From an uncultured Erysipelotrichaceae bacterium (GTDB taxonomy: Bacteria; Bacillota_I; Bacilli_A; RF39; UBA660): DNA of 39,137 bases. Below the pieces are notes generated by a model. That model was not told the origin of the DNA. It was given only the letters and a program-made list of their open reading frames with translations, and ran no database searches. The translations under genes and the position numbers were made by a program. Location of the stretch: the NCBI GenBank assembly GCA_902801685.1, contig CADCIZ010000008.1:1-39137 (forward strand). The letters are read 5' to 3'. Shown piece by piece: positions 3,427 through 35,922 of the stretch; positions within the stretch are counted from its first letter, which is position 1, and each line of letters starts with the position of its first letter.

Positions 3427-4566
3427 TTATTTAAAAATCTCCTTATATTTATCTACTATAATATCCCAGGTAAAATTGTTTTTTACAATATCTTTTGCCA
3501 ATTTACCTTTTTCTTTTCTAACACTATCTATCAGCTTTTTATTATTAAGCAATTCAGTTAAAGAATTATCATCTTTAAAATATAGACAGCTATTACCTCC
3601 TGCATATCTATTAAAGTTTACATCATACAAAATATTTAAATCAGTAAGACTTAATGCCTCTATTAAACTAGGATTAGTTCCTCCTACACTATGTCCATGT
3701 ATATATAAATAAGCATTCTTTCTAATTACTGCTAATTTATTTTGATCATAAACACCATTTATGAACCTAATTCTTGAATCACTATTACAGTTAGTCTTAT
3801 TAACTAACTCATTATAATAATTACCGCTATTTAAGTTAGATATAATAACTAAATCTTTTTTAATATTACTTTTCATGAATTCTTTAATAACTAATTCATA
3901 ATTATTTTCAGGAACACATCTTCCTACCATTAAGCAATAATTATCTCTTTTTAAATCATATTCTTTAAGAATATCTGATTCTGTAATACTTTTAAAATCA
4001 AAAGTATTTGATCCATATGCAATATATGTAGTTCTATTACTTAATTTAGGATATTTTTCATCTACATAATCTTTAATACCAAGACTATCACAAACAATTA
4101 TATCACTAGACTTTAACATAAATCTTTCACTAAGTAAGAAAAACATTTTTGCAATCTTCCCCCACTTGCTTCGTTTAAATTCTAATCCATCAGGATTAAC
4201 AATCATAGTACATCCTATTTTTTTTAATTTTTTTCTTTTTAAAGATAAATAATTTAATGCTTTCAATCCTAATATATATACATAACTAGACTCAATATTA
4301 TTTTCTTTAATATACTTAATCACAGCATCAATAGACTTTACTGAATACAAAAACATATTAAAACTACCTGTATTCTTAATCCTAATAGGTATAACTTTAA
4401 TATTATCATTTACAGTAATAATATCTTCATCTTTATCAGTAATCTTACTGATATAAAATAAAGTATTAGAATCATTATAGTTATCAACTAAATTAGTAAC
4501 AAATGTCTCCCAACCACCATATTTTTCATGGTAACCACGAGAACCTAATATAAATACATGTTTCAT
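3427..4566 (-). CDS. DUF1972-domain glycosyltransferase (Cps2T/RgpA-like rhamnosyltransferase)
   Basis: The N-terminus FILGSRGYHEKYGGWETFV is the hallmark of the DUF1972 domain that precedes a GT4 fold in Cps2T-type enzymes, which transfer rhamnose from dTDP-rhamnose in pneumococcal capsule and streptococcal rhamnan synthesis. The C-terminal half has the GT-B donor site (YIHGHSVGGTNPSLIEAL). Length is 379 aa, normal for the family. It follows a terminator-like hairpin at 4596-4621 and lies 1 bp before ugd. With rfbABCD in the same locus, a cytoplasmic rhamnosyltransfer step early in chain assembly is the natural reading; the linkage is an inference. Confidence 0.85.
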   Translation of the reverse strand: MKHVFILGSRGYHEKYGGWETFVTNLVDNYNDSNTLFYISKITDKDEDIITVNDNIKVIPIRIKNTGSFNMFLYSVKSIDAVIKYIKENNIESSYVYILGLKALNYLSLKRKKLKKIGCTMIVNPDGLEFKRSKWGKIAKMFFLLSERFMLKSSDIIVCDSLGIKDYVDEKYPKLSNRTTYIAYGSNTFDFKSITESDILKEYDLKRDNYCLMVGRCVPENNYELVIKEFMKSNIKKDLVIISNLNSGNYYNELVNKTNCNSDSRIRFINGVYDQNKLAVIRKNAYLYIHGHSVGGTNPSLIEALSLTDLNILYDVNFNRYAGGNSCLYFKDDNSLTELLNNKKLIDSVRKEKGKLAKDIVKNNFTWDIIVDKYKEIFK

Positions 4567-4592: not shown

Positions 4593-4621
4593 AAAAAAAG
4601 TAATGTATTTCAATTACTTTT
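4593..4621 (-). terminator. Intrinsic terminator overlapping the GT2 stop codon
   Basis: A perfect 9-bp stem (4596-4604 with 4613-4621), an 8-nt loop and a run of seven T on the minus strand. The TAA of the upstream GT2 gene lies inside the stem. No convincing promoter is visible before the next gene, so it may attenuate rather than end the operon. Confidence 0.75.
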
Positions 4622-5414
4622 CATTTATATTGTTTGATTTTTCTGCATTTTTATAAAATTTGTTTATTAGCTTTGCAATAAAATTTGGCCAAAATTTACA
4701 TAATATATCATAATCTTCTTCAGTTCTGATACCTTTATTAATAATATCAGTTGTTGTTGATTCAGTAGATATTCTATGTCCCATTAGACATTTATTATTA
4801 AATATAAAATTGCCTTTTAACCTGCTAAGTTTTTCCCAAGCGTACCAATCAACATTACAAGTATAATCAGACTTAAATATTTCATTAGGACAATTATCTT
4901 TAACAAAAGTAACAGCAGGACAACAAACACTGTTTCCAAATCTTAATGACAATCTTTTAATAAATTTAAAACCAGATAATTTTTTTAATCGAAGAGGCAT
5001 TAACAAAATCCTTTTTATCTTTAAATTAGTATTTTTATATACTTTATCTTTACCTCTAATTTCATAATAATCAGTGAATATTATACTTGCTTTATTATGT
5101 TTATTATATTCACTTATAACAGTTTCTGCATATCTGTAATCGTATAAATCATCTTGATGAGCCACTGTCACTAACTTAGTATTGCCACTATTTAGTGCAA
5201 AATCAAAATCGCCACCTATATTGGTATGTTTTCCAACAATAACTTCTAATTTATATTTCTTAGCTAATTTTCTAATAAAGTTATTATCTGTAGTTGTTGC
5301 AATTAAAACATTGGTTTTAATGCTTTGATTTATAGCTGATTTAATGCATTCTTCTAAGTGTTCACTTTCTTTATAAGCCAAAACAACAAATGTGTGGATA
5401 TTATTATAACTCAT
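4614..5414 (-). CDS. Glycosyltransferase family 2
   Basis: A 266-aa protein with a GT-A start (HTFVVLAYKESEHLEECI) and a DxD-like metal site in VTVAHQDDLYDYRYA, followed by a region with CCPAVTFVKDNC and WYAWEKLSRLKG that resembles the acceptor half of small GT2 enzymes. A TTG start at 5423 is possible, but the ATG at 5412-5414 has AAGGAAC about 10 bases upstream and is preferred. It overlaps the glf stop by 11 bp, so translation is probably coupled. It is followed by a strong hairpin terminator. Likely a cytoplasmic sugar transferase of the same glycan; the donor is unknown. Confidence 0.8.
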   Translation of the reverse strand: MSYNNIHTFVVLAYKESEHLEECIKSAINQSIKTNVLIATTTDNNFIRKLAKKYKLEVIVGKHTNIGGDFDFALNSGNTKLVTVAHQDDLYDYRYAETVISEYNKHNKASIIFTDYYEIRGKDKVYKNTNLKIKRILLMPLRLKKLSGFKFIKRLSLRFGNSVCCPAVTFVKDNCPNEIFKSDYTCNVDWYAWEKLSRLKGNFIFNNKCLMGHRISTESTTTDIINKGIRTEEDYDILCKFWPNFIAKLINKFYKNAEKSNNINEK

Positions 5415-6519
5415 CAATACCAAGTTCCTTTTTTACACACTCAAACGCAGATTTTATAACATCATCCATATCATAATATTTATATTCAGCAAGTCTACCA
5501 CCAAATATAACAGTATTTTCAGCATCTGCTAGTTTTCTATATTTCTCAGCTAAAACATTATTCTTATTATCATTAATTGCATAGTACTTTTCCATGCCTT
5601 CTTCGTAATCAGAAGGATATTCATATGTAAGAACAGTTTTATCAGATTTTACATTTTCAAAATGCTTATGTTCAATCACCCTTGTATATTTAACCTCATG
5701 CCCAGTATAGTTAACAACAGCATTTCCTTGAAAATTATCTTTATCCAAAACTTTAATATCAAATTTTAAACTTCTCCAGCCTAACTTTCCAAGTGAATAA
5801 TTAAAATATTCATCAATAGGTCCAGTATATACTACTTTATTTGCAATACTTTTATAATATTCAACATCATCAAAAAAATTTGTATTTAATTTAACTTCTA
5901 TTCCTTCAAGCATATTTTCAACTAATTTAGTATAACCACCAATTGGAATTCCTTGATATCTATCATTAAAATAATTGTTATCATAAACTAATCTTACAGG
6001 TAATCTTTTAATAATAAAAGCTGGTAAATCTTTACAATTACAATTCCATTGTTTTTCAGTATAACCTTTTATCAATTTTTCATATATAGTCCTACCTACT
6101 AAAGAGATAGCCTGTTCTTCTAAATTCTTCGGTTCTCCTTTTATTTCATTTTTTTCCTCATTAATATGTCTCATTGCATCAGATGGTGTAAATACATCGT
6201 CCCAAATTTTACTAAAAGTATTCATGTTAAATGGCAAATTATATACCTCATTATTAATCCTAGCAATTGGCGAATTAGTATAACGATTAAATTCAACAAA
6301 AGAATTAACGTAGTCCCAAACATCCTTATAATCTGTATGAAAAATATGTGCTCCATATTTATGTACATTTATACCTTCAATATTTTCAGTATAAACATTA
6401 CCAGCAATATGATTCCTTTTATCAATTACTAAAACCTTTTTCCCATGACTATGCGCTAGATTAGCAAACGTTGCACCAAACAATCCAGCACCAACAACTA
6501 AATAATCATAATTCTTCAT
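5404..6519 (-). CDS. glf: UDP-galactopyranose mutase
   Basis: FAD-dependent enzyme that interconverts UDP-galactopyranose and UDP-galactofuranose. The 371-aa length is standard. The FAD-binding GAGLFG lies near residues 8-13, followed by KRNHIAGNVYTE and the substrate-site segment KYGAHIFHT. WNCNCKDLPAFIIKRLPVR and the C-terminal IFGGRLAEYKYYDMD are typical of bacterial Glf. It sits directly after a probable galactofuranosyltransferase gene (2-bp gap) and before a GT2 gene. The pair implies galactofuranose in the polymer. Confidence 0.97.
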   Translation of the reverse strand: MKNYDYLVVGAGLFGATFANLAHSHGKKVLVIDKRNHIAGNVYTENIEGINVHKYGAHIFHTDYKDVWDYVNSFVEFNRYTNSPIARINNEVYNLPFNMNTFSKIWDDVFTPSDAMRHINEEKNEIKGEPKNLEEQAISLVGRTIYEKLIKGYTEKQWNCNCKDLPAFIIKRLPVRLVYDNNYFNDRYQGIPIGGYTKLVENMLEGIEVKLNTNFFDDVEYYKSIANKVVYTGPIDEYFNYSLGKLGWRSLKFDIKVLDKDNFQGNAVVNYTGHEVKYTRVIEHKHFENVKSDKTVLTYEYPSDYEEGMEKYYAINDNKNNVLAEKYRKLADAENTVIFGGRLAEYKYYDMDDVIKSAFECVKKELGIDEL

Positions 6520-6521
6520 TA

Positions 6522-7571
6522 TTATTCCTCACACTTCTTTAATGCTTTATCTAAAAAATGTCCCTTGGTAACTTGATTTTGAATTTTCTTTACATTTTTT
6601 AAATATTCTTTATAATCTTTCTCATTCATTTTATCAAAAATATCATCTAATTCTTCCAAACTATTAACAGAAAAACCAATTTTATTTTCCTTGACAAAAG
6701 AAGCTAAAGCAGATTTCTTCCATACAATAACGGGAATTCCACTAGCAATGTATAAAGAAATTTTATGTGGATTATTATACTTCAAATAATTTCCAAAGCC
6801 CCCACTACAACTATTACATTCTATTCCATCCCATACCAATCCAAATCCAGTAGCTGCAAATTTAGATAAATCCGTAGAATCAAATGATCCATTAAATTTT
6901 ATTTTTTTAGATTCAGTACCAGTATAATTAATTCCGAACAAAGAAAACTCATAATTATTTATATTTAAATCATTTAATTTATATGCATATGTTGCTTTAT
7001 TATATGCTAAATTTCCTGCGACAGTTACAATATTATAATCTTTAGCTAATTTATTATTATTTGATGTAATTAAATAATCAAATATTCCTAACTCAATTAT
7101 TTTATTATTATCAATTCCTTCTCTCACTAAATAATCTTTCATTTTTGGATTATGAGCAATGATATAATCAAAATTATCCAAAAACTTAATTTCTTTAACC
7201 AGAACTTTATAATATATTTTACCAATTTTTGATGCTGTTCTTAAAGAATTTAAATCATGTATCAAAACAATTGTTTTTAAACGCTTTCCTACTGCATACT
7301 TTCTTATTAATTTTGAATACTTATAAGTTAAACTGTCAAAAGGATATTGAAATAATATAGTTGAATTATTTTCAATTTCAGTAAGACTATCCTTTAATTG
7401 CTTATAACAATACTTAATGTTTTTTAGCATATCGATTTTATTATTAGCTATATTTTCATTGATATATTTGGTTACATAACCTTTTTTAGCTAAAATTTCA
7501 CTAACATCTTGCCTAGCCTTAGACGATGTTTTATCGTTATCAATTATTTTTGCATCATAAACTATCTTCAT
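6522..7571 (-). CDS. Probable galactofuranosyltransferase (GT-B fold sugar transferase)
   Basis: A 349-aa protein beginning MKIVYDAKIIDNDKTSSKARQDV, with FQYPFDSL and IVLIHDLNSLR near the middle and a donor-site region HKISLYIASGIPVIVWKKSALASFV. These resemble the family annotated as beta-1,6-galactofuranosyltransferases in lactobacilli and streptococci. The functional call is supported mainly by the adjacent glf gene, which supplies UDP-Galf. An alternative is another hexosyltransferase of the same fold. It lies 9 bp downstream of the GT8 gene. Confidence 0.7.
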   Translation of the reverse strand: MKIVYDAKIIDNDKTSSKARQDVSEILAKKGYVTKYINENIANNKIDMLKNIKYCYKQLKDSLTEIENNSTILFQYPFDSLTYKYSKLIRKYAVGKRLKTIVLIHDLNSLRTASKIGKIYYKVLVKEIKFLDNFDYIIAHNPKMKDYLVREGIDNNKIIELGIFDYLITSNNNKLAKDYNIVTVAGNLAYNKATYAYKLNDLNINNYEFSLFGINYTGTESKKIKFNGSFDSTDLSKFAATGFGLVWDGIECNSCSGGFGNYLKYNNPHKISLYIASGIPVIVWKKSALASFVKENKIGFSVNSLEELDDIFDKMNEKDYKEYLKNVKKIQNQVTKGHFLDKALKKCEE

Positions 7572-7580
7572 AATTCTCTC

Positions 7581-8564
7581 CTACTTCTTTATTTTTTTAG
7601 ACCTTATTTTCATAAACAAAGGTATTAATCCATTTATAATTTTATATCTAATCATCGGAAACGGTTTAATTAAAAAATTAAATGTATTCCAACAAATAAA
7701 ATATAATTTCCATCCTTGTTCAATATTTTGATTAGCCCAAGGAGTTAATGATAAATAATATATATAATCACACTTATATTTATGTCTATTACCTACTCTC
7801 CAAGGTCTTTCTTCACCCAAATAATGTACTATTATAGGATTATTTTTAGCTTCTTCAAATTCACTTTTAGATATGTATTGAAAGTCACATAATTTGGCCA
7901 AAAATTTATAACTATATTGATAAAATATATTATAATAATTATATTTAGGATTCAATACAATTATATCATTTTTCATAGATCCATTAATCGCATCCTGATC
8001 ATTCGCAAATAGTTTACCATCATTTTCCTTGTAATAACTAATTATTTTGTTTCCAACATTTTTTTTGCGCCAGTTTTTTAAATCAACAAGTAAAACCCCA
8101 GCATTAAAATATGGTAATCCATCTAACTCTAGGGAATGCTTCCTTTTTTTATCTATTGTTGGTTCAATACTAGCAGCAATAGTTTTATCCTGCATATCCA
8201 TAGAATATAAATCACTTAGATTTTCTCTAACGATGGTATCACCATCTAAATACAAAACTCTATCCATTTTTTTAGGCAAAAGTTTATCTAAAAGTAATCT
8301 AGCTAAAACAATTGGATTCCAACCATTTGTATCAAAATCAAAATCAAAATAACTAGATAAATCATCTAATTCTATAAAATAAACATCTCTTGAATATTTT
8401 TTAGTAAAAAACTCTCTTAACTTTTTCTTATTCTTTTTTGATATATTTAAAGACATCAAATAAAAATCAATTTTTTTTATATCCTTATTATTTTCACAAA
8501 TTGAACACATACCTGCACTAACTTGTGGCACAAATTTATCATTTAAAGTATATAAAATATTCAT
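7581..8564 (-). CDS. Glycosyltransferase family 8
   Basis: The N-terminus MNILYTLNDKFVPQVSAGMCSI, the metal-binding DGD in RVLYLDGDTIV, YFNAGVLLVDLKNWR, and FANDQDAING together define GT8 (galactosyl/glucosyl transferases of LgtC/GspA type, retaining). The C-terminal HYLGEERPW supplies the conserved late histidine motif. The start at ATG 8562-8564 is preferred over 8576 because GGAGGAAAGT precedes it; it overlaps the stop of the upstream GT2 in an ATGA arrangement, indicating coupled translation. The C-terminal ~60 residues are hydrophobic and basic, suggesting membrane association. Likely adds Glc or Gal to the repeat unit. Confidence 0.9.
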   Translation of the reverse strand: MNILYTLNDKFVPQVSAGMCSICENNKDIKKIDFYLMSLNISKKNKKKLREFFTKKYSRDVYFIELDDLSSYFDFDFDTNGWNPIVLARLLLDKLLPKKMDRVLYLDGDTIVRENLSDLYSMDMQDKTIAASIEPTIDKKRKHSLELDGLPYFNAGVLLVDLKNWRKKNVGNKIISYYKENDGKLFANDQDAINGSMKNDIIVLNPKYNYYNIFYQYSYKFLAKLCDFQYISKSEFEEAKNNPIIVHYLGEERPWRVGNRHKYKCDYIYYLSLTPWANQNIEQGWKLYFICWNTFNFLIKPFPMIRYKIINGLIPLFMKIRSKKIKK

Positions 8565-9535
8565 ACTTTCCTCCACACTTTAAATTTTTTTAGTAATCTT
8601 ATTAAATAATGAGATAATTTTATTTTTTTAACGATTATAAACATATTTACTATTAAATTAATACTAAATGTTTCTCCTTTTTGCCAATGTAACTTTATTT
8701 TTTTTGAAGCAATTTTTTTTTGTTCTATCCAACAATAGTTTTCTAAATACATCTTGTTAATTATACTAGAATTACCATTATCTAACTGCATTAAAATATT
8801 TTGAACAACTGTTTTTATATAAAAAAATTGGATTGAATCATTTTTATATTTACTTAAATCTATATTATCATATATATTTTTTATAACAGGTAAAACGTTA
8901 AAAATTTTCTTATTCTGTTTCATACTATATGTTACAGACTCAATGTTTTTATAATTATAATAATCATCAGTTGAACACACTTTAATATTTTTTGTTTTCG
9001 AATATGCAGTTAAGCAAAACATTAAATCCTCATTACAAAAATAACTATTATATAAAATATTATTTTTAACTAAAAATTTTCTTTTGTATAATTTAAATGC
9101 TGTTGCAGTATATTTAAACTCACTCCATACATTTTGACTTGGAATACTCTTACAAATTATTTGCATATTTGTTGAATAAATTCTAATCCCACCTATAATA
9201 ATATCTGTATTTTCTTCTGCAACACTTAACATATTTTTTATTGCATCAACAGCAAAACAATCATCAGCGTCTAAAAAAGTAACAAAATCACCACTTGATT
9301 TTTTTAAACCAGTATTTCTTGCACTTCCAGCACCTTTGTTTTTCTGATTAAACACTTTAATTCGATTATCGTTATTCATATAATTTTTTAACTTATTTAA
9401 TGAATTATCACTAGATCCATCATTTACTAAAATTATTTCTAAATTACCATAAGACTGATTAATTAAACTATTTATACATTTATCTATATGTTTTTCCGCA
9501 TTATATACAGGAACAATTACACTAACTTTCAACAT
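8561..9535 (-). CDS. Glycosyltransferase family 2
   Basis: A classic GT2 start (KVSVIVPVYNAEKHIDKCINSLINQ), then VNDGSSDNS, GAGSARNTGLKKSSGDFVTFLDADD with the DxD site, and CNEDLMFCLTAY in the acceptor region. Length is 324 aa, in the range of capsule GT2 enzymes. It starts 10 bp after the flippase gene and ends in an ATGA overlap with the GT8 gene. Likely a cytoplasmic transferase; substrate specificity cannot be deduced. Confidence 0.92.
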   Translation of the reverse strand: MLKVSVIVPVYNAEKHIDKCINSLINQSYGNLEIILVNDGSSDNSLNKLKNYMNNDNRIKVFNQKNKGAGSARNTGLKKSSGDFVTFLDADDCFAVDAIKNMLSVAEENTDIIIGGIRIYSTNMQIICKSIPSQNVWSEFKYTATAFKLYKRKFLVKNNILYNSYFCNEDLMFCLTAYSKTKNIKVCSTDDYYNYKNIESVTYSMKQNKKIFNVLPVIKNIYDNIDLSKYKNDSIQFFYIKTVVQNILMQLDNGNSSIINKMYLENYCWIEQKKIASKKIKLHWQKGETFSINLIVNMFIIVKKIKLSHYLIRLLKKFKVWRKV

Positions 9536-9545
9536 TTTTACTCCT

Positions 9546-10979
9546 TTATTTAAATAACTGTTTAAAATATCTAATTAAATAATTAATCTTGCATCTATAA
9601 TTTATAAATACAATTGCTACAACAACTAACAAAACAGAATATCTTAATAAAAAATTATTATTGGATAATACAAATAAAATAGCAGTTACAACTAGAGATA
9701 TTGATAAAACAGTCAATAGTCTTAAATCATAAAAACTTCTTTTATCAACCTTTCTCATTCCTAAATAATGAAATATCATTAATAATAAATAGCTAACTAA
9801 CGTTGTATATGCAGCTGCAATATATCCAAATTTTTTTATAAATATGTAATTTAATAATATATTTAAAATAGCAGTTATAACCGAAAATAATGCTATTTGT
9901 TTGTTTTTTTCATGGTAGTATTCTATATCATAAAAGAAAATATACATAATCTCAAAAAATATACCTACAGTTATTGGAGCAATTATAATTGCCGATTTAT
10001 AATAATTTTGGGTTAGAAAAATTTTTATCATTTCTGGAGAAAAAGTAAACAAAGATATGCATAAGAGCCAAGCTCCAACCATCATTAATTTTGAATTAGT
10101 TTTAATTGCATCAATTTCATTTTTTTTAATTCTTCTATATACCCAAGGAGACCATGGCATAAATAATTGAATCAAAATTGTGTATAGAATATTTGAAATT
10201 GTATATGCCATACTGTATAATCCAGCTTCAGAACTTCCAACAATATTTTTAATCATTAACAGATCGCAACTTGCCAAAACAATTTGAGCTAACAAATGAG
10301 GAATCATTGGAATACATATTTTTAAAGATTTTTTTATATATGTAACTTTAACCTTAAACTTTCCTTTATATAAAATATATATACCACTACCAATACCAAA
10401 CAAAATGTTAAAAACTTCAATACCTATTATTCTTCCCATGTACTTATGTGACATAAGAAAATATGAAAAAACTAATGATAATACTTGAGCTACTGGTGAT
10501 GCAAGAAGATTATAAATAAATAGTATTTTATATTTATTCTTAAAATTACAATAATTTACCATTATAGTACAGCCATTAACTAAAATAATCAATGAAAACA
10601 TAAGTGTCATCATTTTAAAATCAAAACCAAGAACTGAATTAATATATTTATTAAATATTACGTATATAAAATATATAAAAAAGCAAAACACACTTGAAAA
10701 AATATAAATAGATGATAAAAAAACATAATCATCACCTTTTATATCCAAAATAACTTTATTTATTGATATATATACTGATAAAAGACAAATTAATGAAAGA
10801 ATTGCCTTTAAAGATATAAAACTTGTCGCAATACCTAAATCAGATACTGTAATAATTCTAGTTATTAAAATAGTTGTAACCAAAGAAACTATTATTGAAA
10901 TTATACTTGTTATAGAATTACTTAATATAGATTTTGTAGTATTCTTGCCATCTTCTTTCCTATTCATTTCTATCATCAT
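9546..10979 (-). CDS. Oligosaccharide flippase (Wzx/GacK-like, MOP superfamily)
   Basis: A 477-aa protein with about 12-14 hydrophobic segments, a basic N-terminus and the start pattern SNSITSIISIIVSLVTTILITRIITVSDLG characteristic of polysaccharide-synthesis flippases (short fragments of that run are diagnostic). MPWSPWVYRRIKK near the middle is also typical. It overlaps the DUF2304 gene by 20 bp; an alternative start is ATG 10965-10967. Its position after a GT2/DUF2304 pair matches GacK in the streptococcal group A carbohydrate cluster, which is thought to flip an undecaprenyl-phosphate-linked side-chain sugar. It could instead flip a whole lipid-linked oligosaccharide. Confidence 0.88.
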   Translation of the reverse strand: MMIEMNRKEDGKNTTKSILSNSITSIISIIVSLVTTILITRIITVSDLGIATSFISLKAILSLICLLSVYISINKVILDIKGDDYVFLSSIYIFSSVFCFFIYFIYVIFNKYINSVLGFDFKMMTLMFSLIILVNGCTIMVNYCNFKNKYKILFIYNLLASPVAQVLSLVFSYFLMSHKYMGRIIGIEVFNILFGIGSGIYILYKGKFKVKVTYIKKSLKICIPMIPHLLAQIVLASCDLLMIKNIVGSSEAGLYSMAYTISNILYTILIQLFMPWSPWVYRRIKKNEIDAIKTNSKLMMVGAWLLCISLFTFSPEMIKIFLTQNYYKSAIIIAPITVGIFFEIMYIFFYDIEYYHEKNKQIALFSVITAILNILLNYIFIKKFGYIAAAYTTLVSYLLLMIFHYLGMRKVDKRSFYDLRLLTVLSISLVVTAILFVLSNNNFLLRYSVLLVVVAIVFINYRCKINYLIRYFKQLFK

Positions 10980-11310
10980 CCATTTTATTTTTCAAAATTG
11001 ATATTTCTTGAATTAATAATCTAATTTTTTTATCTTGATTTGATACAATCATTGTCAAAACTATATTTATAACAATCAATAAAGCAATAATAATTGAAAT
11101 TACCATATTAGAACCAGTTTGAAATCCTAAACATCTTGTAATAAAGCTTAGAACCCCTGGAATAATTATGAGAATTTGCAATAAAAGAAATAATATAATC
11201 CAAACAATGGAATATTTGATATTAATTTTATTTTTTTTTAACAAAGCAAGAATTAATACAATAATAAATAGACTAAATATAATTGAAACAATTTTTAAAT
11301 TAAAACTCAT
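10960..11310 (-). CDS. DUF2304 small membrane protein (GacJ-like)
   Basis: A 116-aa protein with three hydrophobic segments (about residues 5-23, 32-52 and 69-90) and a charged, coiled C-terminal tail (NQDKKIRLLIQEISILKNK), matching DUF2304. Members lie next to polyprenyl-phosphate GT2 enzymes; in Streptococcus pyogenes the corresponding GacJ stimulates GacI. Here the start overlaps the GT2 stop by ATGA, so the two products are probably made in equal amounts and form a complex in the cytoplasmic membrane. Confidence 0.85.
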   Translation of the reverse strand: MSFNLKIVSIIFSLFIIVLILALLKKNKINIKYSIVWIILFLLLQILIIIPGVLSFITRCLGFQTGSNMVISIIIALLIVINIVLTMIVSNQDKKIRLLIQEISILKNKMDDDRNE

Positions 11311-12020
11311 TTCTTACCTCCAATACCCACAGTAAGTATTGATAATACCACATTAATCATATAATACACTTTCTTCCAAGTTTTAATACTCGATATTCCA
11401 TTTTCTCTTTCATTCATGCTTACTGGAACTTCCTTAACACACATTTTTTTCTTCAATACCTCAACAGTTGATACAGGTTCAGGATATTCAACTGGATAAT
11501 TAATGGCAAAATATTGAATTAATTTTTTATTAACGGCTCTAAATCCACTCGTGGTATCATAAATTTTTTTTCCTGTTACTATTTTCATAAATATTGAAAT
11601 TATATTTATTCCAAATCTTCTGGCTTTACTCGATTTAAATTTACTACTAGTTTTATCGATAAATCTAGAACCAATAACCATATCAGCATTTTCGTTTATA
11701 ATTGGCTCAATAAGTTTATTTGCATAATTAATATCGTGTTGTCCATCTCCATCAAATTGAATTGCAATATCGAAATCGTTTATTAATGCATATTTATACC
11801 CAGTCTGAACTGCACCACCTATTCCTAAATTATGCACTAAAGAAATATGAGGAATATCATTTTCCTCGCATATTTCTTTAGTTTTATCTGATGAACCGTC
11901 ATCAATTACGATTACATCAAAATTACTTTTATATTTTTTATTATAATTCATTATTTTATTATAATTATCTAAAACATTATCTTCTTCATTAAAAGAAGGA
12001 ATAATTAACAATACTTTCAT
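11307..12020 (-). CDS. Polyprenyl-phosphate glycosyltransferase, DPM1-like GT2 (GacI-like)
   Basis: A short, 237-aa GT2 starting KVLLIIPSFNEEDNVLDNY, with IDDGSSDKT, HNLGIGGAVQTGYKYA, the DxD in IQFDGDGQHD, and GSRF, all typical of DPM1/GtrB-like enzymes that load a sugar onto undecaprenyl phosphate. The C-terminal end (YYMINVVLSILTVGI) is hydrophobic. Together with DUF2304, the flippase and the GT-C gene on the other side of the promoter, it forms a GacIJKL-like extracytoplasmic decoration module. The sugar is GlcNAc in the streptococcal system; here it is unknown. Confidence 0.9.
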   Translation of the reverse strand: MKVLLIIPSFNEEDNVLDNYNKIMNYNKKYKSNFDVIVIDDGSSDKTKEICEENDIPHISLVHNLGIGGAVQTGYKYALINDFDIAIQFDGDGQHDINYANKLIEPIINENADMVIGSRFIDKTSSKFKSSKARRFGINIISIFMKIVTGKKIYDTTSGFRAVNKKLIQYFAINYPVEYPEPVSTVEVLKKKMCVKEVPVSMNERENGISSIKTWKKVYYMINVVLSILTVGIGGKK

Positions 12021-12048
12021 TTTGTTACACCTCTATCACACTACATCT

Positions 12049-12078
12049 ATTATAACACTATCTATCTTTTATAGTCAA
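12049..12078 (-). promoter_or_regulatory. Promoter of the GacI-like block
   Basis: Minus-strand -35 TTGACT (12073-12078), 18-bp spacer and -10 TATAAT (12049-12054) preceded by TGT, an extended -10. It lies about 30 bp before the GT2 start at 12020 and divides the locus into two transcripts, although no strong terminator was found just upstream. Confidence 0.8.
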
Positions 12079-12125
12079 TTAATAAAAGTGTTATTAAAAA
12101 AACAATATTTCTTTATAAGCCAAAA

Positions 12126-13979
12126 TCAAATACAGTAATGTAGAATCACAGTTTCATAAAACGACATCATAAATGCAATAATCAAGCAAAATAATATAAA
12201 TGTATTATACTTATAATCGCTTATACTTGTTCTTATCCGATTTATTTGACAAAATATAATAAATGGAAATAAAAGTGGGATAAAATATCTGTTTTGAACT
12301 CCATTTATTCCTGTATCCCCAACTGGAGTAAATGATAAATACAATGCAGTCCATATTAAAAAAATTGTAAATAAAATTATTAGTATACATGCAATTCTTT
12401 TTCTAAAATTCATTTGATTAGGATAATTATCTGTAATTGAGGCAAATAGTAAAACGCAAAGTAGTAAAAAGTAAATATTTTCTTTTATAAGTCCAATATA
12501 GGAAAAATATCCTAATGTATAATGACCTATAAATTTATAGAAAAATCTATCAAATGCGGTATCTTTCAAAACCATAATATACCCATCCGGATGTTTAATA
12601 ACATTTTTAAATTGTTCAGCGATATTTGTATCTCCACCTCTCGAATCACCTATATTAGTTGAAACTATATCTGTTGGTAAAGCAAAGGTTGATAAGACAA
12701 GAATGAATATTAATAAAATAATTCCCTTAATCCAAAATTCTTGTTTTTTGTTTTTAAACTTAGAAGACGGAATAAATAGAAATAATAATATTATTGGAAT
12801 ATAAACAGCTTTTGTAAAACAAGCAAATAATATTCCGAAAAGAAATACAGAAATATTTTTGAAATTAATTTTGTATTTATCATCACAAAACCAATTCAAA
12901 ATCGATACTACCCCTAATGTTATTCCCGATATAACCGCAGGATCATATGAATATTGGCAAGCAAGAAATAAAGAAGTTGGCAAAAGCCCTATAACAGTTA
13001 TAATCCGCTTCCCATACTTAGATATTTTGATTGCATATGCCATTAAAACCAGATAAAATAATAAATTCATAAACTTTCCAACTTTAAATGATATATAAAA
13101 TGGGAGTTTACATAATTTGCACAAATGATATCCCATTGCGGAAGGAATATATGCAACCTTGTCGTAATGAATTAATCTGCTCGATTGAGTACTATATGTT
13201 GTTTCAATATCTTTGCTCAGATACGACATTTGATTTTCCTGCTCTTCTATCGATGAAATACTCCATCTTCCTACAGATTTATCATCAATCATAGAGTATT
13301 CACCTATATTCCAGGTAAAACTATTCCCAAAAAGTTCATAACTATTTTTAAAATGTATTTGGTCATCCCACGAATAAAATGTTGAAGAAGGTTGAGCAAT
13401 GATAAATGCCCCGCCCATAATTAATCCAACTATAAAAAAATATTTATATAAAACACTGTTATTCTTTTTAGATTTATAATAATATATAATCAATGACAAT
13501 AATATTTCAAAAGAGAAAATAAATAATATTCTAAAATAACTAATTTTTAAACTATTATCAACATAAATTTTTTCAATTGATAATTTTGAATTTTCGTCAA
13601 TCATAATATTAAACTTATTTACAGGAGATTTTATATTTAAAACCTGTAAATTAACTTCATTATCAAAAATATCAATTGCATTCTTTTTTATTTTTTTATT
13701 ATAATAATTTCTAGAAACATATTCAAAATTAGCCTTAACATCTTCAAAACACTTATACTTAATCTTTAATTTATTTACATATATACCGTGAAAATTAAAG
13801 GAAATAATCTTCTTATCATTTGATATTGTTTCATCATATTTATCAACATAATTCATTCCCTTTGATCTACTATTTAAGGTTAATATTTTAAAATTGAATA
13901 CAAAAATTTCAATAACAAAACTAAAAATAATTAATAAAAGTATTAAAACAGTAATTTTTGTTTTATTATTATATTTCAT
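12126..13979 (-). CDS. GT-C fold membrane glycosyltransferase, DUF2142 (GacL-like)
   Basis: A 617-aa protein with an N-terminal membrane anchor (residues ~8-30), an extracytoplasmic beta-rich segment to ~145, then about ten membrane spans. The first outer loop has PSSTFYSWDDQIHFKNSYE, the acidic motif expected of GT-C catalytic sites and of DUF2142. Late in the protein GVQNRYFIPLLFPF matches the other DUF2142 signature. Such enzymes take a sugar from polyprenyl phosphate outside the membrane and attach it to a polymer, as GacL does in group A Streptococcus. The start has AAAGGAGG upstream and overlaps the 198-aa gene by 11 bp. Confidence 0.82.
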   Translation of the reverse strand: MKYNNKTKITVLILLLIIFSFVIEIFVFNFKILTLNSRSKGMNYVDKYDETISNDKKIISFNFHGIYVNKLKIKYKCFEDVKANFEYVSRNYYNKKIKKNAIDIFDNEVNLQVLNIKSPVNKFNIMIDENSKLSIEKIYVDNSLKISYFRILFIFSFEILLSLIIYYYKSKKNNSVLYKYFFIVGLIMGGAFIIAQPSSTFYSWDDQIHFKNSYELFGNSFTWNIGEYSMIDDKSVGRWSISSIEEQENQMSYLSKDIETTYSTQSSRLIHYDKVAYIPSAMGYHLCKLCKLPFYISFKVGKFMNLLFYLVLMAYAIKISKYGKRIITVIGLLPTSLFLACQYSYDPAVISGITLGVVSILNWFCDDKYKINFKNISVFLFGILFACFTKAVYIPIILLFLFIPSSKFKNKKQEFWIKGIILLIFILVLSTFALPTDIVSTNIGDSRGGDTNIAEQFKNVIKHPDGYIMVLKDTAFDRFFYKFIGHYTLGYFSYIGLIKENIYFLLLCVLLFASITDNYPNQMNFRKRIACILIILFTIFLIWTALYLSFTPVGDTGINGVQNRYFIPLLFPFIIFCQINRIRTSISDYKYNTFILFCLIIAFMMSFYETVILHYCI

Positions 13980-14556
13980 TATTATCCTCCTTTGCTAAAG
14001 GTAATAGCAAAAATGCAATTGCACTAATCATAGCAATATACCAGTAATAACTATTATTCGGTTCTAGGCCTTCAATAGAAACTTTTAGTGTTTTATTGAT
14101 ATCATAATCTAAACTATTATCTTTGTTTATTGGATTTCCAATCATACCGTTTAATTGAGAACATTTTGAAAAATCTATTTCTATTTTAAAAGTCAAATCT
14201 TTTAATTTTGTTTTTTTATTAAAGGCTAAATATAAAATATTTGACTTATAATTCTCAACGTATTGAGAAAAGTAATTAACACCTTTTTCATCATTTATAT
14301 CAACCTGAAAATTACAGTTTAATAAAGAGTCATCCTCGAAAAAAATATATAATCCATTTATATTAGTCACACTTGGGTGAATATATTGAATAATTTTTAA
14401 GGGTAATTTTTCAATATGAGTTTCTTTAGTTGTATCATACATATATGTCACAGATTTTTTTTGGGGTTTAAAAAAAATCACAGCAAAAAGAATTATAAGA
14501 GCGAAAAACAACAAACAATAACAAAACAATAATTTATAATTAACTTTTTTTTTCAT
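13969..14556 (-). CDS. Two-span membrane protein of unknown function, partner of the GT-C enzyme
   Basis: I do not recognise a named family. The protein (195 aa from ATG 14554-14556, chosen because AAAGGTG precedes it; GTG 14565 is the longer option) has one N-terminal span (YKLLFCYCLLFFALIILFAV), about 125 extracytoplasmic residues of beta-rich character, and a C-terminal span (YWYIAMISAIAFLLLPL). This is the same layout as the N-terminal part of the neighbouring GT-C protein, which suggests a split or duplicated accessory domain. It overlaps both neighbours, so translation is coupled. Possible role: acceptor-binding or structural subunit of the outer-face glycosyltransferase. Confidence 0.7.
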   Translation of the reverse strand: MKKKVNYKLLFCYCLLFFALIILFAVIFFKPQKKSVTYMYDTTKETHIEKLPLKIIQYIHPSVTNINGLYIFFEDDSLLNCNFQVDINDEKGVNYFSQYVENYKSNILYLAFNKKTKLKDLTFKIEIDFSKCSQLNGMIGNPINKDNSLDYDINKTLKVSIEGLEPNNSYYWYIAMISAIAFLLLPLAKEDNNEI

Positions 14557-16720
14557 AACTTTCACCTTTATCTAATCGAAATGCATATTTTTTACTCAAA
14601 TTAGCATTATAAAATCTATCATGTAGTATAATATCTCCCCATTTATCACACATGTAATCGATTTCTCCTTTGAATCTTCCATATTGGGAATCACTCATAT
14701 CATCTCCCCTGCTTAATGATTCATAATGAAATAGTTTAACTTGTGGTAAAACAACATTGTAATAACCACTCTTAAGCGATTTTAAACAAAAATCCACATC
14801 ATTATATGCAACCTTAATATTTTCATCCAGGCCTTTTAATTCATCGTATTTTGATTTTTTTATCATAAGGCATGCCGCTGTAACGCATGACCAATCGTAA
14901 ACGCCAACTAATCTACCGAAATACCCTGGAACATTTTCTCCAGACTGCACATATGCATGCATCGCAACACCACCTACTCCAGTAACTACACCAGAATGTT
15001 GTATAGTTCTATTAGGATAAAGTAGTTTAGCTCCAACACACCCTATGTGTTTTTGTGATGCATAACCTACCATAGTTTTTAGCCAATCACTAGTTATTAC
15101 CTCGGTATCGTTGTTCAAAAGGACAATATATTCTCCGTTTGATTTTGACAATGCAAAGTTATTAATATATGAATAATTAAATTCACATTCTAATCTGTAA
15201 TAATTAAAACTATTAAAACTACTTTTATACGTTTTTAATAATTCAAATGTATCATCTTCTACACTATTATTATCAATAACAATTATTTCATAATTATTAT
15301 AATCAGTTTTCTTATATATAGAATCAATACATTTTTTTAGAATATCACTTTTATCTTTTGTAGGAATAATTATTGAAACTTTTGGTTCGCTATCTAATTT
15401 GTAATTAATTTGATACATCTGTATATTATTGATTATTTCGACATCAACTGAAATTTTATTTCGTTTAAAATAATCTACTAAAGCTTTTTTTCCATTATCA
15501 ATAACATAACTTTTATTACTGTTTTTAGAAGATGTAGAAGTATCAGTCATCCTCCAATGATAAAGAATTTTACTAACATGTCCAATATTTTTAGTCTTAT
15601 CAACTATACGTAGAAATAAATCATAATCTTGAGCACCATCAAATTCACTTCTAAATCCGCCAATTTTATCTATTATACTTTTTCTAACCATTGTAAAATG
15701 ACATATGTAGTTTACCGATAATAATGTATCTAAAGAAAAATCAGGTTTGAAATGTGGCATACATCTATTACCTTTATAGTCTAATTTATCTTCGTCGGAA
15801 TAAATCATATCTAATTTTTTATTATTGTTCAATTCTTTTACCATATAATATAACGCATTGACATCTAATACGTCATCATTATCAAGAAGAGCAATATATT
15901 CTCCTTGTGCAAGAGATAAAGCACTATTACTTGCTTCAGATATATGTCCATTTTCACTTCTATATATAATTTCTATCTTATCATTTTTCTCATATTCTTT
16001 TAATGTATCAATAGTCTCTTTTAATGTTGAGTTATCATCTGCAATACAAATTTCAAAATTTGTATAGCTTTGCGCTAATACACTATCTATACATTCACTT
16101 AATAATTTTCTTGATACATTATAAGTTGGAATAATTACCGATATTAGTGGTTGATAAGATAACTTTTCAATTTTTTCTTTTTCTTGTTCATCTAACCATT
16201 TTCTATAATCATTATCAACTAATGGATTATATAATAATTCATCAATATTTTTATTACTCATATTATTTGAAAATGAGCGTAAATACTGTTTAATCATTCT
16301 AGGTGGTACAAGCAAATGATGCCTTTTCCACATTAATTTAATTGTCTTTATAATTATTTTTGGTAGCCTAACCATTTTTGTTAAAAAAACAAATATTTTT
16401 TTCCAAAATATATTTATAAATCTACTTAGTTTATTAGTTTTGAAGTTTGCAACTTCAACATTATTGTATAATAACTTAATATTCTTACTACTGTTTGGTA
16501 CTTTAGCTATATATGAAAACATATCCTGATTTTGTTTTAATATTCGATTATATACATATTCTTTATCTAACTTATAATTAGTTCTAAAATATATTTTCTC
16601 TCCGTCAATAATTAACTCAAAATTCCCTTTTTTAAATTCTTTTCCCTCAAAATAAAGAAATACGTTATTGATACCTTTTAGGTATATTTTATTAATTAAA
16701 ACAGAATCATTATTTTGCAT
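14540..16720 (-). CDS. Two-domain glycosyltransferase family 2 (rhamnosyltransferase-like)
   Basis: A 726-aa protein. The first ~150 residues are a beta-rich then basic segment including RHHLLVPPRM. GT2 domain 1 (~190-420) has ISVIIPTYNVSRKLL, ADDNST and LLDNDD. GT2 domain 2 (~450-690) has VSIIIPTKDKSDILKKCI, IDNNS, LLNNDTEV, QHSGVV and the late YNDVDFCLKSL, typical of WbbL/RgpB-type rhamnosyltransferases. Start ATG 16718-16720 follows a strong AGGAGG and a 1-bp gap from the ABC permease stop; the in-frame upstream extension to 16774 lies within that gene and is rejected. Adjacent to the ABC exporter, so probably elongates the main chain that is exported. Paralogous to the cut gene at 1-976. 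Confidence 0.92.
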   Translation of the reverse strand: MQNNDSVLINKIYLKGINNVFLYFEGKEFKKGNFELIIDGEKIYFRTNYKLDKEYVYNRILKQNQDMFSYIAKVPNSSKNIKLLYNNVEVANFKTNKLSRFINIFWKKIFVFLTKMVRLPKIIIKTIKLMWKRHHLLVPPRMIKQYLRSFSNNMSNKNIDELLYNPLVDNDYRKWLDEQEKEKIEKLSYQPLISVIIPTYNVSRKLLSECIDSVLAQSYTNFEICIADDNSTLKETIDTLKEYEKNDKIEIIYRSENGHISEASNSALSLAQGEYIALLDNDDVLDVNALYYMVKELNNNKKLDMIYSDEDKLDYKGNRCMPHFKPDFSLDTLLSVNYICHFTMVRKSIIDKIGGFRSEFDGAQDYDLFLRIVDKTKNIGHVSKILYHWRMTDTSTSSKNSNKSYVIDNGKKALVDYFKRNKISVDVEIINNIQMYQINYKLDSEPKVSIIIPTKDKSDILKKCIDSIYKKTDYNNYEIIVIDNNSVEDDTFELLKTYKSSFNSFNYYRLECEFNYSYINNFALSKSNGEYIVLLNNDTEVITSDWLKTMVGYASQKHIGCVGAKLLYPNRTIQHSGVVTGVGGVAMHAYVQSGENVPGYFGRLVGVYDWSCVTAACLMIKKSKYDELKGLDENIKVAYNDVDFCLKSLKSGYYNVVLPQVKLFHYESLSRGDDMSDSQYGRFKGEIDYMCDKWGDIILHDRFYNANLSKKYAFRLDKGESYEKKS

Positions 16721-16721
16721 G

Positions 16722-17495
16722 CTAAACCTCCTCTGCAAAACCTTTTTGTAATTTTTCAAATATTGAATAGCCAATTATAAATACTAATATTGCAAATAGC
16801 AATACAATTCCAAGGCCAATCATACTTGGATTTCTATGATATAAAAATATATCACGATAAGCATATATCAAATGTGCCATAGGATTAATCTTCAAAATCC
16901 ATGATAAATTATCTGGAAATATATCTGGAGAATAAAGTATTGGAGTAACATAAAAAGCCATAGCTAATACAAATGTTATTATATGTTCGATATCTCTCAT
17001 ATACATTTCTACTGAACTTAATATAAAAGTAATCCCGAGTAATAATATGTACTGTATTAGTGCAATTACAGGTAGCCATATCAAGTGATAACTAACGCCA
17101 ACACCACCAAACACACAGAATAAAAGTACAATAATACAACTAATTCCGAAATTAACAAGTGCACTTGTAACAGCAGATATTGGAAGTAATATTCTTGGAA
17201 AATATACTTTTTTTATAATATCTGCATTACTTAATATGGAAACTATCCCTGTATTGATTGCGCTTGTAAAAAATGTCCATGGAATCATACCAGTAATCAG
17301 ATAAATAAGATAATTTTCTACTTTCATTCGCATAATATATGGAAATACTATTGCATAAACTAATACTGATAATAATGGATTAATAAATGACCATAAAATA
17401 CCTAAAAATGATCCCTTATATTTTCCTCTTATATCTTTTTTTACATTGGATTTAAGAAATTCAAAATAATTTTTTATATCACTTACTAAACTCAT
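16722..17495 (-). CDS. ABC-2 type polysaccharide exporter, permease subunit (RgpC/TagG/Wzm-like)
   Basis: A 257-aa membrane protein with six predicted spans. Conserved features are DIRGKYKGSFLGILWSFINP, VLVYAIVFPYIMRM, LITGMIPWTFF, and the late PDNLSWILKINPM followed by YR. It forms the channel that moves a finished lipid-linked glycan to the outer face. The ATG at 17493-17495 is preferred over GTG 17504 because GGAG lies 8 bases upstream; it overlaps the ATPase stop as TAATG. Confidence 0.95.
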   Translation of the reverse strand: MSLVSDIKNYFEFLKSNVKKDIRGKYKGSFLGILWSFINPLLSVLVYAIVFPYIMRMKVENYLIYLITGMIPWTFFTSAINTGIVSILSNADIIKKVYFPRILLPISAVTSALVNFGISCIIVLLFCVFGGVGVSYHLIWLPVIALIQYILLLGITFILSSVEMYMRDIEHIITFVLAMAFYVTPILYSPDIFPDNLSWILKINPMAHLIYAYRDIFLYHRNPSMIGLGIVLLFAILVFIIGYSIFEKLQKGFAEEV

Positions 17496-18229
17496 TATTT
17501 GCACTCCTTTAAATATGCATCAACTATTTCACTACAATTACCATCCATTTTAACCTCGCCATTATTAATCCAAATTGCTCTATTACATAATTTTTTAATA
17601 GAATTTAAATTATGTGTAACAATTACAATTGTTTTATCACTATCTCTTAGTTCTTCCAGCTTACTAAAACATTTATCTTGGAAATGTTGATCTCCTACTG
17701 CAAGTATTTCATCAATAAGTAAAATATCGGCATCTACATTTATCGCTACAGAAAAAGCAAGTCTCATATACATCCCTGATGAATATGTTCTAACAGGATT
17801 ATCAATAAATTCGCGAAGTTCAGAAAAATCAATAATCTCATCTAATCTAGCATCAATATCTTTTTTAGATAAACCAAATATCGATGCATTAAAATAAATG
17901 TTTTCTCTCCCTGAAAAATCAGGATGAAATCCAGCACCTAATTCTAGCAATGATGTTAATTTGCCACTAGTTTTAACAGTTCCTTTAGTAGGATATATTA
18001 TTTTGGTCATCAATTTTAATAAAGTAGACTTTCCACTTCCATTTACACCAACTAATGCTACAGTTTCACCTTTTTTTATATCTAAATTAATATTTTTTAA
18101 AACTACTCTTGTTTCTTTATCACTGCGATTCCAAAACATTATTTTCTCTTTTAATGTATTAGCTTTATCATAAAAAACATTAAATTTTTTTGTCATATTT
18201 TTTACTTCAATTGCATTTTCCTTTTTCAA
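17495..18229 (-). CDS. Polysaccharide ABC exporter, ATP-binding subunit (RgpD/TagH/Wzt-like)
   Basis: A 244-aa ATPase with Walker A GVNGSGKST, signature YSSGMYMRLAFS and Walker B ILLIDEILAVGD, followed by the switch histidine in VIVTHNLNSI. EVKNMTKKFNVFYDKANTLKEK at the start marks the polysaccharide/teichoic acid export subfamily. There is no long C-terminal carbohydrate-binding domain of the Wzt O8/O9a type, so substrate recognition probably does not depend on a capping modification. The start codon is TTG with AGGTGA upstream. Confidence 0.96.
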   Translation of the reverse strand: MKKENAIEVKNMTKKFNVFYDKANTLKEKIMFWNRSDKETRVVLKNINLDIKKGETVALVGVNGSGKSTLLKLMTKIIYPTKGTVKTSGKLTSLLELGAGFHPDFSGRENIYFNASIFGLSKKDIDARLDEIIDFSELREFIDNPVRTYSSGMYMRLAFSVAINVDADILLIDEILAVGDQHFQDKCFSKLEELRDSDKTIVIVTHNLNSIKKLCNRAIWINNGEVKMDGNCSEIVDAYLKECK

Positions 18230-25679: not shown

Positions 25680-25713
25680 GTCTAATAACTCTCCTTCCAT
25701 ACTTTATGTATTA

Positions 25714-25860: not shown

Positions 25861-25889
25861 AAAAATGCTTAATTCTTATAAGCATTTTT
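25861..25889 (-). terminator. Intrinsic terminator of the rfb operon
   Basis: A perfect 11-bp stem (25861-25871 with 25879-25889), 7-base loop, ending in T5. The rfbB stop codon lies within the hairpin. Confidence 0.88.
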
Positions 25890-26873
25890 ATATTCGCCGG
25901 ATTTGATATTTTCAATCCAATCCTGGTTATTTACATACCAATCAATAGTTTCTTTAATACCACTTTCAAAAGTATATGTACGATTCCATCCAAGTTCTTT
26001 CTCTACTTTAGTAGAATCAATTGCATATCTTAAATCATGCCCTGGTCTGTCAGTTACATATTCTATTAAATCTTCTGATTTTCCTAATTGTTTTAATATA
26101 GTTTTTACTACTTCTAAATTAGTTCTTTCAGAATGTCCACCTAGATTATAAACTTCACCTACACGACCATTTCTAACAATTAAATCAACACCAATGTTAT
26201 GATCAATTACATGAATCCAATCACGAACATTCTCACCTTTACCATATACTGGTATTTTCTCATCATTAAGTGCTTTACTAATAACAACAGGAATTAACTT
26301 TTCTGGAAATTGATAAGGTCCATAGTTATTAGAACAACGAGATATAGTTACAGGAAGTCCAAATGTTCTATGATATGCCATTACAAGTAAATCGGCACTT
26401 GCTTTAGAAGATGAGTAAGGACTTGATGTATGTAAAGGTGTAGATTCAGTAAATAATAAATCTGGTCTATCTAAAGGTAAATCTCCATATACTTCATCAG
26501 TAGATACTTGATGATATCTTTTAATATTATGACGTCTTGATGCATCCATTAATGTTTGTGTACCAATTATATTTGTTATTAAAAATAATCTTGGATTCTT
26601 AATAGAATTATCAACGTGTGATTCTGCAGCAAAATTAATTACTATATCAAAATTTTCTTCATCAAATAATTTTTCTACAAACTCTGAATCAGTAATATCA
26701 CCATGCACAAATTTATAATTATCTTTACCTTCTAAATCTTTAATATTATTATAATTACCTGCATATGTTAATGCATCTAAACATACAAAATAATCTTCAG
26801 GATACTTATTAACTACATAATGCATGTAATTACTTCCAATAAACCCTGCTCCACCAGTTACTAAAAACTTCAT
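25869..26873 (-). CDS. rfbB: dTDP-glucose 4,6-dehydratase
   Basis: Second step of dTDP-L-rhamnose synthesis. NAD-binding GGAGFIGSNY starts at residue 7 of the chosen frame; STDEVYG carries the catalytic Thr-Asp-Glu and YSSSKASAD the Tyr-xxx-Lys pair; ISRCSNNYGPYQFPEKLIP is family-typical. Start ATG 26871-26873 is preferred to the upstream in-frame start at 26927, since AAAGGATG precedes it and it falls 1 bp after the rfbD stop. 334 aa, usual length. Last gene of rfbACDB, ended by a terminator. Confidence 0.97.
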   Translation of the reverse strand: MKFLVTGGAGFIGSNYMHYVVNKYPEDYFVCLDALTYAGNYNNIKDLEGKDNYKFVHGDITDSEFVEKLFDEENFDIVINFAAESHVDNSIKNPRLFLITNIIGTQTLMDASRRHNIKRYHQVSTDEVYGDLPLDRPDLLFTESTPLHTSSPYSSSKASADLLVMAYHRTFGLPVTISRCSNNYGPYQFPEKLIPVVISKALNDEKIPVYGKGENVRDWIHVIDHNIGVDLIVRNGRVGEVYNLGGHSERTNLEVVKTILKQLGKSEDLIEYVTDRPGHDLRYAIDSTKVEKELGWNRTYTFESGIKETIDWYVNNQDWIENIKSGEYKNAYKN

Positions 26874-26874
26874 A

Positions 26875-33816: not shown

Positions 33817-33829
33817 TTATTCACCCCAA

Positions 33830-35899: not shown

Positions 35900-35922
35900 C
35901 ACACACACCTACCTTCAATCTA

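Follow-up and report, generated by a model that had tools for sequence, protein, structure and literature searches.

The question raised by this locus is how four adjacent genes, at positions 9546–13979 of a bacterial contig, may decorate a cell-wall polymer. The contig, CADCIZ010000008.1 from an uncultured Erysipelotrichaceae bacterium, was analyzed whole, and we refer to this stretch of 39,137 bp (25.4% G+C; G000:C8) as the window. The source genome measures 1.31 Mb in 75 contigs, with a completeness score of 91.7%. A sequence-only reading had likened the four genes to the streptococcal GacI-GacJ-GacK-GacL module and had predicted that they add side chains to a rhamnose polymer at its outer face. 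This interpretation is partly supported: it is right in outline, and its closest match is too narrow.

With a probability of about two in three, we read the window as a two-branch locus for a rhamnose-rich wall polysaccharide, with the four-gene set as its side-chain branch, of the type that builds an oligosaccharide primed on undecaprenyl phosphate (Und-P). Protein families, gene coupling, motifs and synteny come from the sequence, the GT-C glycosyltransferase (GT) fold and a jelly-roll domain from models only, and the sugars, their order, the acceptor and the assignment of each transfer to an enzyme are what we infer. A GT2 (11307–12020), held at the membrane and stimulated by a DUF2304 protein, would transfer an N-acetylhexosamine (HexNAc), most likely N-acetylglucosamine (GlcNAc), onto undecaprenyl monophosphate. 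Cytoplasmic enzymes encoded downstream (a second GT2, a GT8 and probably a galactofuranosyltransferase fed by a UDP-galactopyranose mutase) would extend this sugar to a short oligosaccharide, which a Wzx-type flippase would bring to the outer face. There, a DUF2142 GT-C enzyme would use D205 to attach it to a rhamnose-containing backbone. This backbone would be begun by TagO and a GacB-like enzyme, exported by an ABC pair and finally joined to peptidoglycan through an LCP protein whose gene lies on contig C3.

The probable starter pair and the flippase

The four genes have exactly the open reading frame (ORF) ends given by the sequence-only reading, and all genes of interest lie on the minus strand. 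Each of the four proteins exceeds the curated Pfam cut-off. The GacI/WpsA-like GT2 (237 aa; PF00535, 82.7 bits) is the predicted polyprenyl-phosphate HexNAc synthase that would start the side chain. Its partner at 10960–11310 is a GacJ/WpsB-like DUF2304 membrane protein (116 aa; PF10066, 77.5 bits), and the stop codon of the first gene overlaps the start codon of the second in the ATGA at 11307–11310, as had been described. The GT2 contains no hydrophobic span, and the DUF2304 protein contains three predicted transmembrane (TM) segments. The DxDxQ motif of the GT2 reads DGDGQ (residues 90–94), and all 20 aligned sequences keep D90, D92 and Q94. In PMC10821137 (papers cited by PMC number are drawn on in excerpt), DxDxQ is described as a possible hallmark of polyisoprenyl-phosphate GT2s, and WpsA as an enzyme without a TM segment that leans on the three-TM protein WpsB. 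DUF2304 itself is typical of GacJ-like proteins (PMC8327497).

The GT2 shares 53.6% identity over 233 residues with the GacI homologue of Streptococcus suis, which exceeds the 43.8% between WpsA and GacI, two enzymes with the same measured activity (PMC10821137). For the DUF2304 protein, identity to the S. suis counterpart is 30% over 103 residues. A search by sequence against solved structures placed the GT2 nearest to dolichol-phosphate mannose synthase (best relative 5mlz, E 1.1e-28), ArnC and GtrB-type enzymes; the DUF2304 protein gave no match in this search. Two relatives, 64% identical to the GT2, carry the names uncultured Bacilli and uncultured Tenericutes. A GacI-like GT2 adjoins DUF2304 in each of the 18 stretches retrieved around DUF2304 genes of relatives; this pairing and the co-occurrence of DUF2142 with DUF2304 given below go beyond chance. 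Recognizable GacI/GacJ and WpsA/WpsB features of the pair are thus supported at the level of sequence, where the GT2 also combines the two traits expected of a HexNAc-P-Und synthase (no TM segment, DxDxQ).

The flippase gene (9546–10979) encodes a 477-aa protein with 12 hydrophobic spans that is assigned by family to the Wzx-type proteins of the MOP superfamily (PF13440, 38.7 bits; PF01943, 28.9 bits). All gene junctions inside 9546–12020 overlap, whereas 105 bp lie between the DUF2142 and GT2 genes. Among the four, the GT-C gene is first, unlike in gacI-J-K-L, where gacL is last.

A Wzy polymerase elsewhere in the locus had been named as a sign against the proposed module. No Wzy-family match was found among the 30 window ORFs scanned, a set that leaves aside small or overlapping ORFs and those beyond position 36487. 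The sole Wzy_C match in the genome is a protein on contig C57 (L052) beside type IV pilus-like genes. As judged from the translations, it is flanked by pilin-like, prepilin-peptidase-like and PilC-like proteins, and it may be a pilin glycan ligase. On these two grounds we rejected a Wzx/Wzy pathway. Two other flippase-family matches in the genome lie on C12 and C15.

The DUF2142 enzyme and its predicted outer domain

The fourth gene (12126–13979) encodes a 617-aa protein with a DUF2142 match (PF09913, 136.4 bits) and a predicted GT-C core at residues ~170–617. No second DUF2142 protein and no PMT_2 match were found in the genome, and the GT-C type here is DUF2142 only. Comparison by sequence with solved structures returned no meaningful match. 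Alignment of 22 DUF2142 proteins revealed six invariant residues (D205, K318, P334, D346, K390 and Y565). D205, kept in 22 of 22, lies within FYSWDDQIHF after the TM segment at 176–194, and in the predicted models this acidic position falls within the first outer loop of the GT-C core.

Two AlphaFold2 models were compared with known structures, one built from 10 sequences (predicted local distance difference test score, pLDDT, 55.5) and one from 22 (pLDDT 69.6). For the first model, the top 33 rows by Z (15.2 to 8.0) were all GT-C-type, translocon-oligosaccharyltransferase or GPI-transamidase chains, and the next row was an unrelated chain with Z 7.3. The second model matched ALG12 best (Z 15.8, root-mean-square deviation 5.0, 306 aligned residues), with PglB, AftB and ALG9 at Z 11.5 to 12.3. 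Its top eight rows (Z 15.8 to 10.2) were glycosyl- or oligosaccharyltransferase chains, if the chain from the translocon entry in eighth place is presumed to be the oligosaccharyltransferase. When Foldseek was used by itself, neither model had a match at E 0.001; the top row for the first was ALG9. The models thus support a GT-C fold for residues 170–617 well, and with it the earlier proposal of transfer at the outer face.

Between TM1 and TM2, residues ~38–144 are predicted to form a jelly roll that resembles carbohydrate-binding modules (CBMs), a statement about fold only. The first model left this domain mostly below pLDDT 50 and without strands; the second shows strands within 49–141, with block confidence from 40 to 82. 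VIA-align matched the domain to CBM22, CBM29, CBM35 and CBM32-like jelly rolls over ~100 residues at 3 Å, with Z 8.4–8.9 for CBM22 and CBM29, and Z 8 to 9 is near the level that the tool calls middling. The Foldseek rows for the second model mostly concerned the same domain and were beta sandwiches, among them those of IFT25, CBMs and Eph receptors, all weaker than E 0.001. Based on the models, this domain could bind sugar. Hydropathy, as read by eye, shows an extended outer loop behind the first TM segment in 10 of the 22 aligned DUF2142 proteins; the S. suis protein (435 aa) has none. Inspection by eye, without counts, suggested no clear trend between this long-loop type and GacI-like neighbors.

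Wedged between a tandem GT2 gene and the DUF2142 gene, and overlapping the latter by 11 bp, is a gene (13969–14565) for a 198-aa protein that may be a GT-C partner. This protein consists of a TM segment, ~140 predicted outer residues and a second TM segment, has no Pfam or NCBIfam match, and found no credible relative when 145 other genomes of the family were searched. One match (1 of 145 genomes, E 7.7e-4) was taken as chance, as it sits between genes read as dnaN and recF. Compared by profile with the DUF2142 alignment, the 198-aa protein matched in the first TM segment only. Acceptor-binding domains or partner proteins have been raised for GT-Cs (PMC8035078). We tentatively suggest, as a possibility on which we would not rely, that the jelly roll, perhaps with the 198-aa protein, binds acceptor or chain and so sets the site or frequency of side-chain attachment to the rhamnose backbone. 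If true, a carbohydrate-binding domain would be built into a Gram-positive wall GT-C, the long-loop proteins would form a DUF2142 subtype, and control of branch placement would become open to experiment.

Which pathway the four genes serve

The genes that trail the flippase gene in close array bear directly on this question. They encode a GT2 (8561–9535; PF00535, 139 bits) and a GT8 (7581–8576; PF01501; 51.8% over 328 residues to the GT8 of the S. suis locus), both candidate enzymes of side-chain elongation. A galactofuranosyltransferase-like enzyme (6522–7571; NF007326, 290 bits, below the cut-off of 420) and a UDP-galactopyranose mutase (5404–6519; PF03275, 275 bits), which would supply UDP-galactofuranose (UDP-Galf), follow. 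Because these four genes lie downstream, we expect an oligosaccharide side chain. In view of the DUF2142 systems of lactococci, S. thermophilus and S. suis, an Und-P-primed oligosaccharide system fits better than a strict GacI-J-K-L module.

The closest named locus is that of S. suis. Record NZ_CP135066.1 (L058) encodes, in order, GT2, ABC permease, ABC ATPase, rhamnan synthesis F, a lipopolysaccharide biosynthesis protein (Wzx-like), DUF2142, GT8, GT2, rhamnan synthesis F, GT4, GT2, DUF2304 and GT. By number and order, and given one gene ahead of this stretch, these genes would correspond to the 14-gene srp cluster of PMC13015895, in which deletion of the gacI homologue srpP leaves the trisaccharide-repeat backbone and abolishes the branched multi-sugar side chain. 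Like the window, this cluster unites the ABC pair, Wzx, DUF2142, GT8 (52%), GT2, the GacI-like GT2 (53.6%), DUF2304 and a last GT (35%). The earlier description of the window as non-streptococcal therefore holds for the organism and fails for the gene set, since the S. suis record has much the same genes, DUF2142 and GT8 included. The two differ in that S. suis encodes a pair of rhamnan-synthesis-F proteins, for which the genome of the window gave no match, and a DUF2142 protein of 435 aa that lacks the N-terminal domain. The window also contains both rml and Galf genes, whereas the cluster as excerpted from PMC13015895 lacks the former and the S. suis stretch that we read lacks the latter. 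Although filed as a plasmid, the record carries infC, rpmI, rplT, aroD and aroC together with the wall-rhamnan cluster, and looks chromosomal.

Three further systems were compared by description. The Wps system of Lactococcus (WpsA/B, WpsG, WpsJ) shares with the window a GacI/J-like starter pair, cytoplasmic elongation, a Wzx flippase, a DUF2142-type transferase and a separate ABC-exported rhamnan. In Pseudolactococcus, WpsJ was inferred from DUF2142 and proposed as the side-chain transferase (PMC12599335). Unlike this system, the genome of the window yielded neither a second DUF2142 polymerase nor RgpF, and its congener (see below) swaps the GT-C as well. For S. thermophilus, the Rgp locus (ScbA–F plus DUF2142) is described with the starter pair ScbA/B, elongation GTs, a flippase and a membrane protein that is proposed to transfer an unpolymerized tetrasaccharide; the locus includes a DUF2142 protein, the proposed side-chain transferase (PMC9746298). 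The window matches it in starter pair, elongation GTs, flippase, DUF2142 and lack of Wzy, and differs in the gene content around this core. The window thus has the combination common to Wps, Scb and Srp: a starter pair, a flippase and a DUF2142 protein encoded side by side in a single cluster. S. pyogenes GacI-GacJ-GacK-GacL likewise has a starter pair and a Wzx-type flippase beside a GT-C gene, but GacL is of PMT_2 type and adds a single GlcNAc (PMC8035078), whereas the window has DUF2142 with an extra outer domain plus elongation genes.

A congener (genome G002, same genus; locus stretches L040 and L050) was compared by BLAST. It keeps the starter GT2 (68%), DUF2304 (67%) and the flippase in the same place (62%), along with TagO (80%), RmlA/C/D/B (85–96%), the ABC ATPase (77%) and permease (65%), another GT2 (GT2c, 78%), the Cps2T-like enzyme (82%), the tandem GT2 (57%), a GDSL esterase (55%), an acyltransferase (50%) and GH25 (64% over 239 residues). 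The congener locus contains no BLAST counterpart of DUF2142, the 198-aa protein, GT8, the galactofuranosyltransferase, the mutase, TupA, GT4, a 407-aa protein or the UDP-sugar dehydrogenase, and only weak matches to the GT2 after the flippase and to the TOD1-type protein. In their stead it encodes a 465-aa DUF2142 protein, a DUF7657/DUF7654 protein, GT11 and other GTs. A conserved starter pair and flippase with swapped GT-C and sugar genes is the look of a serotype-like side-chain locus. In L040, the DUF7657/DUF7654 membrane protein (11056–13119) adjoins the GT2-DUF2304 pair in place of the GT-C of the window, and may be another GT-C type.

Among the alternatives, one has the DUF2142 protein act as a WpsI-like polymerase and the 198-aa protein as its WpsH-like co-polymerase, so that an Und-P-linked repeat is polymerized outside and then fixed to wall or rhamnan by another enzyme. 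The lactococcal polymerase is also a DUF2142 protein, and its partner carries an outer loop between signal peptide and membrane helix (PMC12599335; PMC10821137 swaps the names WpsI and WpsH of polymerase and partner). The 198-aa protein has a similar topology and its gene overlaps that of DUF2142. However, the genome encodes a single DUF2142 protein and yielded no PMT_2 match, which leaves the attachment step without a second GT-C from these families, and the 198-aa protein is an orphan that the congener lacks by BLAST. We consider this alternative unlikely.

About equally unlikely is the strict GacI-J-K-L scheme, in which a lone GlcNAc would cross the membrane as GlcNAc-P-Und and be added to rhamnan on its own, with the downstream GTs at work on the backbone or another branch. 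Adjacency of the four functions and the GacI/GacJ features agree with it, as does the conservation of the flippase in the congener despite swapped neighboring GTs, which is expected if only the first sugar is recognized. Since the GT-C is DUF2142 instead of PMT_2, and since the GT2, GT8 and Galf genes, which would act at the inner leaflet, follow closely behind the flippase, we rejected the filing as a strict GacI-J-K-L module; moreover, the closest named locus, that of S. suis, makes a multi-sugar side chain (PMC13015895). That the four genes merely sit in a rhamnose locus and decorate another polymer (teichoic or lipoteichoic acid, or a glycoprotein) is very improbable: related multi-component systems do decorate teichoic acids (PMC8035078) and a GtrA protein is encoded elsewhere in the genome (one match, on C28 by a gene read as polysaccharide deacetylase, with no GT2 within the 3.3 kb read), but the four genes form a tight operon-like array with those for the ABC exporter and rhamnosyltransferase, and both the congener and S. 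suis group them likewise.

Several observations weigh against the oligosaccharide side-chain branch that we prefer. The donor sugar of the GT2 cannot be read from sequence, and S. thermophilus homologues reportedly use GlcNAc or N-acetylgalactosamine (PMC9746298). BLAST at E 0.01 did not match the flippase to the Wzx of S. suis. RgpF (PF05045) was not found in the genome, which is 91.7% complete and whose contig here breaks off within a gene on the left; for this reason we deduce the rhamnan backbone and claim membership for the side-chain branch only. The different DUF2142 (465 aa) and DUF7657 proteins of the congener suggest that transfer may depend on several proteins acting together. Finally, co-occurrence is partial. 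Among 60 genomes, 8 of the 10 with DUF2142 also have DUF2304 (Fisher p 0.0009; one of the eight is counted by a sub-cut-off DUF2142 match), but 11 genomes have DUF2304 without DUF2142 (DUF2304 genomes number 21 at E 0.001 and 19 over the cut-off used). In a class-wide sample, DUF2142 occurs in 13 of 395 genomes; with the locus of the window left out, 12 of 16 DUF2142 loci have no GacI-like neighbor within 1.5 kb (4 of 16 do), and DUF2304 lies next to DUF2142 in three (1.5-kb flanks). Given this partial co-occurrence and the few GacI-like neighbors, DUF2142 may be one of several GT-C types that work with this starter pair. One locus (L025, 6284–9896) carries tandem DUF2142 genes, one with and one without the long N-terminal loop, just ahead of a GacI/GacJ pair; these are possibly a polymerase plus a ligase.

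If the preferred reading is correct, the wall-polysaccharide scheme of streptococci and lactococci extends to an uncultured gut lineage of small genomes. Literature searches on such loci in these lineages returned, as judged by title and abstract, no paper on the subject, and excerpts of the review PMC12413058 did not treat it. On the preferred reading, the cells would have walls whose surfaces are rich in rhamnose and vary as serotypes do, and their interactions with phage, immune factors and lysozyme might follow known rules. The locus would be a known machine in a new lineage. Its unusual parts are the predicted jelly roll of the GT-C and the 198-aa membrane protein encoded beside it, with the predicted sugar-binding domain as the part worth testing.

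Putative backbone genes and the remainder of the contig

Rhamnose supply, TagO, the first rhamnosyltransferase and the ABC exporter are all encoded on the same contig, which agrees with the rhamnose polymer proposed earlier. The TagO/GacO-like initiating phosphosugar transferase (29307–30347; PF00953) is followed by RmlA, RmlC, RmlD and RmlB for dTDP-rhamnose (25869–29248). The putative first rhamnosyltransferase (3427–4566; PF09314) is GacB/RgpA/Cps2T-like, with 395.7 bits to NF046071 (Cps2T), below the cut-off of 500. GT2c (4614–5423) and the GT that closes the S. suis locus are 35% identical. The candidate backbone polymerase is the tandem GT2-GT2 glycosyltransferase (14540–16774; PF00535 in two stretches). 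Export would fall to an RgpC/TagG-like ABC-2 permease (16722–17504; PF01061; 33% to the S. suis permease) and an RgpD/TagH-like ATPase (17495–18229; PF00005; 41.5% to the S. suis ATPase; TagH-type NCBIfam match below cut-off). The LCP protein on C3 is the one match in the genome.

In reading order, TagO and the four rml genes lead to a choline-binding-repeat GH25 protein, a TupA-like ATP-grasp protein, the GDSL esterase, the acyltransferase, the 407-aa protein, GT4, ABC ATPase, ABC permease and tandem GT2. The 198-aa orphan, DUF2142, GT2, DUF2304, flippase, GT2, GT8 and galactofuranosyltransferase-like genes come next. The series closes with the mutase, GT2c, the Cps2T/GacB-like rhamnosyltransferase, a UDP-sugar dehydrogenase, a TOD1/MUCI70-type GT and the gene truncated by the contig end.

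Three neighbors deserve mention. The TOD1/MUCI70 glycosyltransferase-like protein (983–2146), with a coiled-looking tail, belongs to a family named from plants and lies here within a bacterial wall locus. The GH25 lysozyme-like protein with choline-binding repeats (23685–25700) is encoded inside the wall-polysaccharide locus and has its relative in that of the congener. At 32521–35908, two neighboring genes encode Cadherin-like-domain proteins, one with a C-terminal type I dockerin, which seems unusual in a 1.3-Mb genome; genes of similar size occupy the matching place in the congener (L050, 14917–18401).

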